Source: Oscillospiraceae bacterium (GTDB lineage: Bacteria; Bacillota; Clostridia; Oscillospirales; Acutalibacteraceae). Taken from it: a DNA stretch of 43,643 nt. The stretch is from NCBI GenBank assembly GCA_015065505.1, contig SVQE01000015.1, positions 1-43,643 of the forward strand. Reading direction: 5' to 3'. A program made the translations under genes and the position numbers. The notes below the pieces were generated by a model. It did not search any database, was not told the origin of the DNA, and saw nothing but the letters and a program-made list of their open reading frames with translations. Positions 1,595 through 4,718 of the stretch are shown here, piece after piece (within the stretch, counting starts at the first letter, position 1; every line of letters begins with the position of its first letter).

Positions 1595-2894
1595 GCTCAA
1601 CAGCCTTAATTCATATCCCTTCCATATGCCCGGGCATAAACGAAATGCAAAATTCGGAATTTCGGGCAGTGAGATTGATATAACCGAAATCAATGGCTTT
1701 GATAATCTTCACAACCCAGAGGGCGTTTTGCTTGATATTGAAAACCGCCTTAAAGTGCACTATAAAGCAGAAAAATCCTTTATGCTTGTCGGCGGCTCAA
1801 CCGTTGGCATTCTTTCGGCTGTTTTTGCAGTTTGCAGCGAGGGCGACACTGTTATTATTGCAAGAAACTGCCATAAAAGCGTTTTTAACGCCTGTATGCT
1901 GAGAAAGCTAAAAGTTATCTATATCGAGCCCGAATTCAACGCTGAAAACGGATTTTATACTCGCATAGAGCAAAGAACTGTTGACGAAGCAATTAAAAAG
2001 CATCCCGAAGCTAAAGCACTTATTATCACTTCACCAACCTATGAGGGATATATTTCAGAGATTACCTCGCCTGTTCCATTGATAATTGACGCAGCACACG
2101 GCGCGCATTTCGGTATTGCGGATTTTCCGAAATATCCCAAGGGCGATATTGTTGTTTCAAGTCTGCACAAAACACTTCCTGCGCTCACACAGACGGCAGT
2201 ATTAAATGTTTTTAATAAAGAATACATTAGCAGGGTTAAGCTCTTTCTTGATATATTTGAAACAAGCTCACCGAGCTATGTTTTGATGAATTCGGTTGAT
2301 ATCTGCCTTGACTACATTGAAAACAACAAGGGTGATTTTGAAAGTTACTATGAGCTTTTAGAAGAATTCTACAACCTTGAATTAAAGCATCTTAAACTGC
2401 TTAGGGCTGATGATTTAAGCAGAATTGTTGTTTCGTGTGAAAACGCGCATATAAGCGCTGCCGAGCTTACAAACACACTTGAATTCAGATTCAATATCGA
2501 GCCTGAAGCCATAAGCAAAAGTTATATTATTCTTATCAGCACCGTTGCCGATGATGAAATCGCGCTTAAAGAGCTTTATAATGCATTAATGATAACGGAC
2601 GGCGTGCTTAATGAAAAGACAGCAGAAGTATTTAAAAAGCCCCCCTGCCCCGACGATGAAATGCTTATTTCCATTGATGAATGCTTTGAGGAAACAGAGC
2701 TTGAAAAAGCGGCAGGCAAAATTTCAAATGAATTTGTTTTTGCATATCCGCCCGATATTCCTCTTATAGTGCCGAATGAAATTATTTCAGCCAATACGCT
2801 TGAATACATAAAAGAGCTTCTCGAAAGCGGCGTAAATGTTATTTCAGACAGCGCATTATTGCCTGATAAGATATTGACAAAAACAAAGAGATAA
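1578..2894 (+). CDS. Orn/Lys/Arg decarboxylase family PLP enzyme
   Basis: The 438-residue protein opens with SYPFHMPGHKRN, the signature start of the fold-type I Orn/Lys/Arg decarboxylase family. It continues with DITEINGFDNLHNPEG, the cofactor loop VGGSTVGIL (about 71-79), D171 in IIDAAHGAHFG and the PLP lysine K198 in SSLHKT. A shortened C-terminal domain carries YPPDIPLIVPNE. Members decarboxylate arginine, lysine or ornithine for polyamines; the substrate cannot be read from sequence. It starts with TTG at 1578, seven bases after TAAGGAGG, which lies within the 3' end of the preceding gene. It is shorter than the roughly 480-residue Bacillus YaaO/SpeA type. The promoter of the next gene overlaps its last codons. 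Confidence 0.85.
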   Translation: MKLNNKLNSLNSYPFHMPGHKRNAKFGISGSEIDITEINGFDNLHNPEGVLLDIENRLKVHYKAEKSFMLVGGSTVGILSAVFAVCSEGDTVIIARNCHKSVFNACMLRKLKVIYIEPEFNAENGFYTRIEQRTVDEAIKKHPEAKALIITSPTYEGYISEITSPVPLIIDAAHGAHFGIADFPKYPKGDIVVSSLHKTLPALTQTAVLNVFNKEYISRVKLFLDIFETSSPSYVLMNSVDICLDYIENNKGDFESYYELLEEFYNLELKHLKLLRADDLSRIVVSCENAHISAAELTNTLEFRFNIEPEAISKSYIILISTVADDEIALKELYNALMITDGVLNEKTAEVFKKPPCPDDEMLISIDECFEETELEKAAGKISNEFVFAYPPDIPLIVPNEIISANTLEYIKELLESGVNVISDSALLPDKILTKTKR

Positions 2895-2902
2895 ATTATA
2901 AT
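2874..2902 (+). promoter_or_regulatory. consensus sigma-A promoter for the SCIFF peptide
   Basis: TTGACA at 2874-2879 and TATAAT at 2897-2902 are separated by exactly 17 bp, matching the vegetative consensus in all twelve positions. The -35 box lies within the last codons of the upstream decarboxylase. Transcription would begin near 2909, about 24 bases ahead of the SCIFF start codon, leaving room for the ribosome site GGAG at 2921-2924. Confidence 0.85.
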
Positions 2903-2932
2903 ACTAAAGAAATAAATTAAGGAGTGATTCCC

Positions 2933-3079
2933 ATGAAAAGAATTAAGACTTTAAGCTCAAAGAATCTTTGCGAATCTGCTAAGAAGGGCGGCTGCGGCGA
3001 GTGCCAGACATCCTGCCAGTCTGCAAGCAAAACTTCTTGCTCAGTTGCAAATCAGAAATGTGAGCAAAACAAGAAATAA
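2933..3079 (+). CDS. SCIFF ranthipeptide precursor (six cysteines in 48 residues)
   Basis: This 48-residue peptide has Cys at 13, 21, 24, 28, 36 and 43. It carries the family core KKGGCGECQTSCQSA, then KTSC and NQKCE, the pattern of the 'six cysteines in forty-five' (SCIFF) precursors that are nearly universal in Clostridia. A radical SAM SPASM enzyme follows, as expected, and would install thioether crosslinks between cysteines and nearby residues. As I recall the family, the stretch after CQSA reads C-K-T-S-C-T. Here residue 32 is Ser and residue 37 is Ser, while an extra Cys occurs at 13, so the six-Cys count is reached differently. GGAG lies 8 bases before the ATG. Its own promoter lies upstream and a terminator downstream. 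Confidence 0.93.
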   Translation: MKRIKTLSSKNLCESAKKGGCGECQTSCQSASKTSCSVANQKCEQNKK

Positions 3080-3092
3080 TTAATCCGGATTT

Positions 3093-3116
3093 ACGGCGGT
3101 TCAACCGCCGTTTTTC
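3093..3116 (+). terminator. intrinsic terminator between SCIFF peptide and maturase
   Basis: ACGGCGGT (3093-3100) pairs with ACCGCCGT (3104-3111) around a 3-nt loop and is followed by TTTTTCT. The GC-rich stem with a U-tract lies 14 bp past the peptide stop. It should give a short abundant peptide mRNA and only limited read-through to the maturase gene. Confidence 0.85.
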
Positions 3117-3159: not shown

Positions 3160-3207
3160 ATGGTCTTGCAGACGGCAATTATATATCGCCGACCGCAGGT
3201 CCTTAAA

Positions 3208-3235
3208 TTCGTAATTCGTAATTCGTAACTCGTAA
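3208..3235. repeat. heptanucleotide tandem array, (TTCGTAA)3-CTCGTAA
   Basis: Four consecutive 7-bp units with a single substitution in the last one. It ends 19 bp before the maturase start codon, just upstream of its AAGGAG ribosome site. It is the second period-7 array in the same intergenic space, with an unrelated unit sequence. Confidence 0.85.
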
Positions 3236-3254: not shown

Positions 3255-4649
3255 ATGATACACGCATATAAAATGAACGGCTATAATATCATAATCGACC
3301 AGAACAGCGGATGCGTTCATTCCGTTGATGAGGTTGCCTTTGATATTATCAGTATGTATGAAGAAAAATCAAAGGATGAAATCAAAAACTTCATCCTTGA
3401 TAAATACTGCGATAAAGAGGATGTTACCGCTGAGGATATAGACCTCTGCTTTGAGGATATTGAAGCGCTGAAGGCTGAAGGCAGGCTTTTTGCAGAGGAT
3501 ACCTTTGAAGGTTTGGCAGATGAATTCAAGCAGCGTCAGAGCGTTATTAAGGCAATCTGCCTGCATGTTGCACACGGCTGTAATCTTAACTGCGAATACT
3601 GCTTTGCAGGCAAGGGCGAATATGGCGGCAGCGATAAGGGCTTAATGAGCCTTGAGGTTGGCAAAAAGGCGCTTGATTTTCTTGTTGAAAACAGCGGAAC
3701 AAGAAAAAATCTTGAAGTGGACTTTTTCGGCGGCGAGCCCCTTTTAAACTGGGGGGTTTGCAAGGAGCTTGTTAAATACGGACGCGAGCTTGAAAAAACG
3801 CATAACAAAAACTTCCGCTTTACGCTAACAACAAACGGCGTTCTTGTTGACGATGAGGTTATTGATTTCTGCAACAAAGAGATGGGAAATGTTGTTTTAT
3901 CCCTTGACGGCAGAAAGGAAATTCACGATAACCTTCGCAAAACCCCGAACGGCAAGGGCTCTTACGATTTAATTATTGATAAATTTAAAAAGTTTGCCGA
4001 TGCAAGAAATCAGCAGAATTATTATATGAGGGGCACATATACCCACTTCAACACCGATTTTTCAAAGGATTTAATACATATGGCAGACCTCGGTTTCAAG
4101 GAGCTTTCAGTTGAGCCCGTTGTTTGCTCGCCCGATGAAGCGTATGCGCTGAAAAAAGAGGATTTACCAACACTTAAAGAGCAGTATGAAATACTTGCAA
4201 ACGAGATGCTCAAAAGATACAGAAACGGCAGCGGCTTCACCTTCTATCATTATATGATAGACCTGGATTCGGGACCATGCATTGTTAAACGAGTTAGCGG
4301 CTGCGGAGTCGGCACAGAGTATATGGCTGTTACCCCGAGCGGCGAGCTTTACCCCTGCCATCAGTTTGTAGGCGATGAAAAATTCAAACTCGGAACCATC
4401 TTTGACGGTGTAACAAACCCCGAGATATTAGAGCAGTTCAAAGCCTGCAATGTTTACTCACACAAGGAATGCAAGGATTGCTTTGCAAAGCTTTATTGCT
4501 CTGGCGGCTGCGCTGCAAACGCATATCACACTACGGGCAGTGTTAACGGCGTTTACGAATTCGGCTGCGAGCTGCACAGAAAGAGAATTGAATGTGCAAT
4601 AATGTTAAAGGTGGCAGAAGCTGAAGAAAATTTAAAAGTAACCTACTAA
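3255..4649 (+). CDS. radical SAM SCIFF peptide maturase (SPASM domain)
   Basis: The 464-residue enzyme has an N-terminal peptide-binding (RRE-like) region (1-95) and the radical SAM cluster motif C109-x3-C113-x2-C116. FFGGEP (158-162) binds SAM, and a C-terminal cysteine-rich SPASM region follows (C350, C368, C398, C406, C409, C415, C419, C438) for auxiliary [4Fe-4S] clusters. The start IHAYKMNGYNIIIDQNSG is typical of SCIFF maturases (the CteB type). It would form Cys-to-residue thioethers in the peptide at 2933-3079, in the cytoplasm. AAGGAG lies 6 bases before the ATG. A terminator and two heptad arrays separate it from its substrate gene, so read-through or an unseen promoter must drive it. 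No exporter or protease gene is nearby. Confidence 0.93.
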   Translation: MIHAYKMNGYNIIIDQNSGCVHSVDEVAFDIISMYEEKSKDEIKNFILDKYCDKEDVTAEDIDLCFEDIEALKAEGRLFAEDTFEGLADEFKQRQSVIKAICLHVAHGCNLNCEYCFAGKGEYGGSDKGLMSLEVGKKALDFLVENSGTRKNLEVDFFGGEPLLNWGVCKELVKYGRELEKTHNKNFRFTLTTNGVLVDDEVIDFCNKEMGNVVLSLDGRKEIHDNLRKTPNGKGSYDLIIDKFKKFADARNQQNYYMRGTYTHFNTDFSKDLIHMADLGFKELSVEPVVCSPDEAYALKKEDLPTLKEQYEILANEMLKRYRNGSGFTFYHYMIDLDSGPCIVKRVSGCGVGTEYMAVTPSGELYPCHQFVGDEKFKLGTIFDGVTNPEILEQFKACNVYSHKECKDCFAKLYCSGGCAANAYHTTGSVNGVYEFGCELHRKRIECAIMLKVAEAEENLKVTY

Positions 4650-4675
4650 TCGAAATCACTTTAGCGCTTTAATGC

Positions 4676-4704
4676 GGACAACTGGGGACTGTCCCCAGTT
4701 GTCC
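4676..4704. repeat. perfect 14-bp inverted repeat with 1-nt centre
   Basis: GGACAACTGGGGAC (4676-4689) and GTCCCCAGTTGTCC (4691-4704) are perfect complements around a single T. It sits between the maturase stop and the ribosome site of the methyltransferase at 4719. There is no U-tract, so it is not a classic terminator. It could block translation, act as an operator, or be a small dispersed repeat. Confidence 0.75.
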
Positions 4705-4718
4705 CACATGGAGAAAAA

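Follow-up and report, generated by a model that had tools for sequence, protein, structure and literature searches.

What does a dedicated maturase make of a SCIFF peptide from which the reported thioether donor, Cys32, has been lost? SCIFF peptides belong to a widespread RiPP system of Clostridia, with matches in 245 of the 291 genomes in our sample of that class, whose product is disputed and whose role is little known. The family was reportedly first described by Haft and Basu in 2011. Natural peptides that lack Cys32, Thr37 or both and that are encoded beside an intact dedicated maturase form a ready-made test set. One such peptide is encoded in the window, by which we mean the whole 43,643-nucleotide stretch of DNA analysed here, and the following features define its gene.

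2874..2902, + strand: sigma-70-type promoter-like site, TTGACA-17-TATAAT, with 12 of 12 consensus matches.
2919..2924, + strand: ribosome-binding-like AAGGAG, read directly from the sequence.
2933..3079, + strand: SCIFF precursor peptide gene of the Ser32 type (scfA), 48 amino acids plus stop; TIGR03973, 75 bits (cut-off 50); Pfam PF13165 SCIFF, 77.2 bits (cut-off 27).
2969..2971, + strand: codon 13, Cys, in the leader-like part; Cys in 72 of 73 genus loci.
3026..3028, + strand: codon 32, AGC (Ser); Cys at this position is the reported thioether donor of characterised SCIFFs in the available excerpts of two reviews (PMC8326336, PMC8172795).
3032..3034, + strand: codon 34, ACT (Thr), retained in 440 of 442 unique loci; acceptor for CteA in E. 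coli co-expression, according to the same excerpts.
3041..3043, + strand: codon 37, TCA (Ser); Thr37 is the in vitro acceptor of CteA and Tte1186a, again according to the excerpts.
3093..3111, + strand: terminator-like hairpin with a T run between the peptide and maturase genes; 8 pairs, 6 of them G-C.

Translation of 2933-3079 gives cysteines at residues 13, 21, 24, 28, 36 and 43 and serine at both 32 and 37, as the initial annotation had read them, and threonine at 34. Five of the canonical six cysteines (21, 24, 28, 32, 36 and 43) are present and are joined by Cys13; the sixth, the thioether donor Cys32, is serine. A threonine that could act as acceptor is found at 34, not at 37. Homology places the window peptide in the SCIFF family, but it is not a canonical six-cysteine SCIFF.

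The stop codon of the peptide is separated from the maturase gene by 175 bases. Three promoter-like sites occur in the region versus 1.4 expected in shuffled sequences, and four terminator-like sites versus 0.6. A tandem repeat of an AATTCGT-like heptamer lies just 5' of the maturase gene at window positions 3206-3235 (three overlapping matches, 0.1 expected), and a near-perfect palindrome, a GGGGACTGTCCCC-type hairpin, lies 3' of that gene at 4675-4705. Among five neighbouring proteins scanned with Pfam, one is Orn/Lys/Arg-decarboxylase-like, one, of 193 residues, has no match, and the others are a methyltransferase, a helix-turn-helix protein and an aconitase; none of the five matched a transporter or protease family. 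In the source genome, which is 88.95% complete, a single TIGR03973 match was obtained at E ≤ 10, and a second, canonical SCIFF was not found there.

The serine at residue 32 is fixed in the genus. TIGR03973 matches are present in 71 of the 80 genus genomes, and every place at which they fall was read, 72 loci by script and one (L519 of genome G005) by eye; all 73 have Ser32. An error of sequencing or assembly, which the initial annotation had entertained for this codon, is ruled out by this uniformity and by the use of three codons among the 72 script-read loci (AGC in 60, AGT in 6 and TCA in 6), and the loss of the reported donor that it had noticed is real. Two serine codon families, AGY and TCA, are found within the one genus, which fits selection for serine at residue 32. 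Thr34 and Cys13 accompany Ser32 in 72 of the 72 script-read loci, with residue 37 being Ser in 70 and Ala in 2; L519 has Ser32, but it has Gly21 and lacks Cys13. The extraction script required Cys21, Cys24, Cys28 and either Cys or Glu at 36, and left Lys33 and Thr34 free to vary. No two of the 72 loci share a 69-nt core, yet only 3 amino-acid cores occur among them, and codon differences summed over all pairs amount to 23,706 synonymous versus 347 amino-acid-changing. Omitting the 119 pattern-found loci, since the pattern fixed much of the core, leaves 104 script-read non-Cys32 loci from the family model; in these, 103 nucleotide cores encode 13 amino-acid cores, and Thr34 is present in 104 of 104. 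As judged from these codon comparisons, the Ser32 peptide is under strong purifying selection and is a working peptide, not one in decay.

Ser32 is also found beyond the genus. Contigs were scanned for the core motif with a codon 32 that does not start with T, a design that excludes TCN serines, and at least 119 stretches were returned. Named records with Ser32 include Mogibacterium kristiansenii, Eubacterium brachy ATCC 33089, Mobilibacterium timonense, Baileyella intestinalis, Gallibacter intestinalis DSM 108706, Alterileibacterium massiliense and Clostridium aminobutyricum DSM 2634; M. kristiansenii, C. aminobutyricum DSM 2634 and G. intestinalis DSM 108706 are named strains in which a Cys32-independent product could be sought. 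In the window's family, peptides were obtained from 103 genera, 93 of them with Cys32 and 10 with a non-Cys32 peptide; the latter have Ser32 with Ser37 or Ala37 in eight cases (the window's genus among them), Ser32/Thr37 in one and Val32 in one. Elsewhere in the order, Ser32 was seen in one genus of family f20 and one of f16. No canonical copy was found in the 17 non-Cys32 genomes searched; 16 of these have one SCIFF match and the other (G931) has two, both Ser32.

Residues 32 and 37 were tabulated for 442 loci unique by 135 nt, a set in which Ser32 is over-represented because it was what the motif scan selected for and because all loci of the genus were included: Cys/Thr in 191, Ser/Ser in 152, Cys/Gly in 92, Ser/Ala in 5, Ala/Ser in 1 and Ser/Gly in 1. 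Six loci fell outside the extraction pattern and were read by eye, namely L519, L315 (Ser32, Val34, Asp35, Asn36, Thr37), L317 (Val32, Ser36, Ala37), L390 (Cys32, Ala36), L456 (Cys32, Gly at 23) and L316, which is truncated; L314 has Cys32 with Glu36. The association between residues 32 and 37 is strong, yet it is indistinguishable from shared descent. A strict coupling, with Cys paired to Thr or Gly and Ser paired to Ser or Ala, is broken by L330 (Ser/Gly) and L315 (Ser/Thr). Independent-pair tests of residue 32 against residue 37, and of residue 32 against maturase residue 352, gave three starred pairs each, too few to reach significance.

We are nearly certain that Ser32 SCIFFs are a conserved subclass in which the reported donor Cys32 has been lost. 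Because Cys32 is absent, the reported Cys32 thioether is impossible in this subclass. The initial annotation had allowed that serine here might prove common among SCIFF peptides with the known crosslink. It is common in some lineages, but CteA and Tte1186a, the characterised peptides in the review excerpts, have Cys32, and no Ser32 SCIFF with a known crosslink was found. Our literature search returned no description of the Ser32 subclass, and four core strings were without a match; the first description of the family lay outside this search, and absence from print is not claimed.

The maturase gene downstream of the peptide gene has the following features.

3255..4649, + strand: SCIFF maturase ScfB (P0002), radical SAM/SPASM, 464 amino acids; TIGR03974, 738.6 bits (cut-off 425); best solved relative 5wgg_A (CteB), E 1.6e-173.
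4308..4310, + strand: maturase codon 352 (Val), two residues after Cys350, a marker of the Ser32 type; among readable rows, Val in 122 of 122 for Ser32/Ser37-or-Ala37 and in 5 of 258 for Cys32.
4575..4577, + strand: maturase codon 441 (His), three residues after Cys438, a second class marker; His in 101 of 110 readable Ser32/Ser37-or-Ala37 rows.

P0002 qualifies as a SCIFF maturase on three counts: a TIGR03974 score above the cut-off, the radical SAM CxxxCxxC motif and the SPASM cysteines. The model TIGR03942, which stands for anaerobic sulfatase-maturase-like chemistry as the rival, gives 100 bits, below its cut-off of 349.45. A maturase match was found for 435 of the 472 peptide loci, every one on the same strand and no more than 1 kb downstream. 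Of the other 37 loci, 15 have less than 1.3 kb of DNA downstream and 22 have about 1.5 kb or more; with these 22, constant adjacency of peptide and maturase is not upheld. Twenty of them are Cys32 loci and the other two come from the Ala32 genome, and there is no Ser32 locus with at least 1.3 kb of downstream DNA that is without a maturase. For the 20 Cys32 loci, which have at least 1.5 kb downstream (L083, L220, L233, L237, L271, L273-L275, L286, L312, L349, L350, L364, L365, L367, L433, L448, L451, L452 and L458), the maturase may sit elsewhere or gene order may differ. The Ala32 peptide (L136 and L256, genome G933) has 4.4 kb of downstream DNA without a maturase match in the locus and is possibly an orphan precursor.

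We compared 382 maturases, 124 from Ser32, 87 from Cys32/Gly37 and 171 from Cys32/Thr37 loci. Across all three classes, cysteines 102, 109, 113, 116, 342, 350, 368, 406, 409, 415, 419 and 438 of P0002 are conserved; positions 415 and 438 have single exceptions. In the Ser32 class, all twelve, which include the radical SAM CxxxCxxC, the SPASM cysteines and Cys102, are present in every readable row apart from Cys438 (111 of 112). The most class-specific positions are 352 and 441, near Cys350 and Cys438. In the available text of PMC6231123, the cysteines of the SPASM motif are auxiliary-cluster ligands, and by that motif we assign Cys350 and Cys438 of P0002 as predicted ligands. Residue 441 is Phe in most Cys32/Gly37 maturases and mostly Glu or Gln in Cys32/Thr37 maturases. 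A strict co-change of maturase residue 352 or 441 with peptide residue 32 is not upheld: the maturase of L330 (Ser32/Gly37) has Ser352/Phe441, and those of L394, L403 and L408 (Cys32/Gly37) have Val352/His441. Cys352 is found in 61 of the 171 Cys32/Thr37 maturases, where it makes a CxC beside the predicted ligand Cys350 and is a possible extra cluster ligand. Cys36 of the peptide is lost in L390 (Ala), L314 (Glu), L315 (Asn) and L317 (Ser), and all four loci adjoin Cys352-type maturases. The Cys32/Thr37 peptide of L380 (genome G161) has a maturase of the Gly37 type (Ser352/Phe441) as its neighbour; since two SCIFF matches occur in G161, the partners may have been exchanged.

With Cys32 absent, the change fixed and the maturase intact, either the register of the crosslink has moved or the product differs, which upholds the proposal of the initial annotation. 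CteB, which together with CteA makes thermocellin in Clostridium thermocellum (PDB 5WGG/5WHY), is homologous to the window maturase over nearly its full length; CteB has Ser where the window maturase has Val352. The leader of the window peptide aligns only weakly with CteA 1-21 (E 0.23), and the donor Cys32 and in vitro acceptor Thr37 given for CteA in the excerpted reviews are both serine here. In the available text on CteB, Aux I turns its open site towards the active site, and Cys21 of the CteA fragment was bound there (PMC8326336, PMC6231123). Tte1186a and Tte1186 of Caldanaerobacter subterraneus are, in the material available to us, likewise a SCIFF precursor and a SCIFF maturase; the Cys32-Thr37 crosslink reported there for Tte1186a cannot form in the window peptide. 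Freyrasin (PapA/PapB), as excerpted, is a ranthipeptide system with a related SPASM maturase, and P0002 scores 277.8 bits against NF047865, below the cut-off of 340. The Cys32/Gly37 SCIFFs of the same family and order have a near-identical core, and their maturases fall on the same side of the tree as the Ser32 type; they differ from the window system in keeping Cys32, in having Gly37 and in a maturase that is mostly Ser352/Phe441.

The acceptor of the SCIFF link is reported in two ways, as Cys32-Thr37 in vitro and as Cys32-Thr34 in E. coli co-expression, in the excerpts of both reviews (PMC8326336, PMC8172795). Gly37 is found in 92 of the 283 unique Cys32 peptides. Thr34 is missing from only two of the 442 unique loci, L301 and L312, which have Val34 and keep Thr37. 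Because Thr37 is missing so often among Cys32 peptides and Thr34 almost never, Cys32-Thr34 is favoured over Cys32-Thr37. The comparative data therefore speak against Thr37 as the general acceptor and favour Thr34, and the loss of Thr37, which the initial annotation had treated as a critical change of acceptor, loses that meaning.

Our preferred reading, to which we give a probability of about 0.4, is that Ser32-type SCIFFs would carry a shifted thioether on Thr34 with sulfur from a neighbouring invariant cysteine. As in CteB, the RRE domain of the maturase would bind the leader, and the enzyme would abstract a hydrogen atom at the side chain of Thr34. A single link from sulfur to side chain would then form on this invariant threonine, with the sulfur coming from another invariant core cysteine. 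Cys36 would be the first candidate donor and Cys28 the second; Cys36 follows Thr34 by two residues, a mirror of Cys32, which precedes it by two. Val352, beside an auxiliary-cluster ligand, may be part of a changed active site. A donor on the C-terminal side of its acceptor is described for NxxcA, in which Cys23 is linked to Asn20 (PMC8326336, as excerpted). PapB accepts many spacings, Cys-Xn-Asp with n from 0 to 6, in the available text of PMC9413430, and this tolerance makes a changed register chemically plausible. Conservation of Cys36 does not mark it as the donor, since Cys32 peptides conserve it just as well. L315 and L317 lack Cys at both 32 and 36, and L315 also lacks Thr34, yet both sit beside intact maturases, which counts against the shifted link. 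In L330, L394, L403 and L408, Val352 tracks the clade and not the peptide, which also counts against this reading. No mass spectrometry of a Ser32 SCIFF was found in our literature search.

The history of the maturase bears on a second reading, the strongest rival, which treats the Cys32 thioether as clade-limited or as a partial product and places the conserved modification elsewhere, at Cys21, 24, 28 or 43 and their neighbours, where it would still be made on Ser32 peptides. In a maturase tree of 65 rows, Cys32/Thr37 is split from the rest (100/99), except for L380. The Ser32/Ser37 rows appear as a grade surrounding those of Cys32/Gly37, with many inner forks of Cys32/Gly37 open, and L330 is placed inside Cys32/Gly37, indicating that residue 32 changed more than once. 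The test rejects a single clade of all 28 sampled Ser32 rows, and with it a single origin of Ser32 for those rows (p-AU 0.0004), but does not do so when L330 is removed (p 0.168), so that the apparent nesting of Cys32/Gly37 groups, above all L394, L403 and L408, within Ser32 is not firm. L315 and L317, which have Cys352 maturases and lie outside this tree, would add further losses of Cys32.

Non-Cys32 peptides thus occur in at least four unlike settings with intact maturase cluster cysteines (Ser32/Ser37-or-Ala37, L330, L315 and, with Val32, L317), and the one Ala32 genome is a fifth setting, with no maturase found in the locus. The rejection of a single Ser32 clade, the four losses of Cys36 and the structure of CteB, in which Cys21 and not Cys32 is at the Aux I cluster, are consistent with a product formed away from residue 32, although the crystal held only CteA 1-21 (PMC8326336 and PMC6231123, as excerpted). 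Against this stand the review excerpts, according to which CteA and Tte1186a each have just one link, at Cys32 (PMC8326336, PMC8172795), and the retention of Cys32 in 93 of the 103 genera of the family. On balance we regard the second reading as rather unlikely. The broader proposition, that the Cys32 thioether is not the universal SCIFF product, that it has been repeatedly lost with retention of the maturase and most of the core, and that the conserved product needs no Cys32, we hold to be possible but doubtful. If it were true, Ser32 lineages would show the Cys32-independent SCIFF product uncluttered.

The shifted link on Thr34 must also be weighed against the absence of any crosslink, with the free cysteines acting by themselves, for example in metal or thiol chemistry, and the maturase serving as a binding partner or catalysing another reaction. 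Only five cysteines are present in 57 of the 159 unique non-Cys32 peptides and four in one, and no cysteine at one fixed site was found in non-Cys32 peptides that would make up for Cys32. Cys46 as a general substitute is rejected, being present in only 23 of 145. These counts would suit uncrosslinked peptides, but the cluster cysteines of the Ser32 class are intact, including those of the radical SAM CxxxCxxC, Thr34 is kept throughout the model-found, script-read non-Cys32 set, and every Ser32 locus with enough downstream DNA adjoins a maturase. We consider uncrosslinked peptides unlikely.

A further suggestion makes Ser32 itself the reaction site, oxidised as by the anaerobic sulfatase maturases, which convert Ser or Cys to formylglycine, so that Cys32 and Ser32 would be interchangeable. 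The excerpt of PMC8326336 describes anSME, a SPASM radical SAM enzyme, as working on either residue, and the retention of Ser32 in the genus across the AGY and TCA codon families would agree with a need for serine. The thioether reported at Cys32 of the characterised peptides in the excerpted reviews (PMC8326336, PMC8172795) and the existence of Val32 and Ala32 variants make oxidation of Ser32 quite improbable.

That Cys13 is the replacement donor in the window's genus, where 72 of 73 loci have it, is very improbable indeed: it is absent from 84 of the 159 unique non-Cys32 peptides, it is present in 29 of the 92 Cys32/Gly37 peptides, it falls where the peptide matches the RRE-bound leader of CteA, and extra cysteines of any kind are about equally frequent in non-Cys32 (84 of 145) and Cys32/Gly37 (49 of 88) peptides. 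The corresponding counts for Cys32/Thr37 are lower, 16 of 193 for extra cysteines (the four tandem loci being omitted from these three counts) and 1 of 191 for Cys13, which the remaining 75 of the 159 non-Cys32 peptides carry. This distribution across classes marks Cys13 as a lineage feature and not a substitute for Cys32, and compensation by this cysteine, as the initial annotation had envisaged, is rejected. Two features thus go beyond that annotation, the retention of Thr34 and the occurrence of Cys13 in peptides that keep Cys32 as well.

Two minor observations concern the precursors themselves. A genus-type Ser32 SCIFF (L146) occurs in a record titled Bacteroides sp., a title that is probably mislabelled. 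At L259, L366, L368 and L444, from four genomes, tandem double SCIFF precursors have two complete cores in each open frame.
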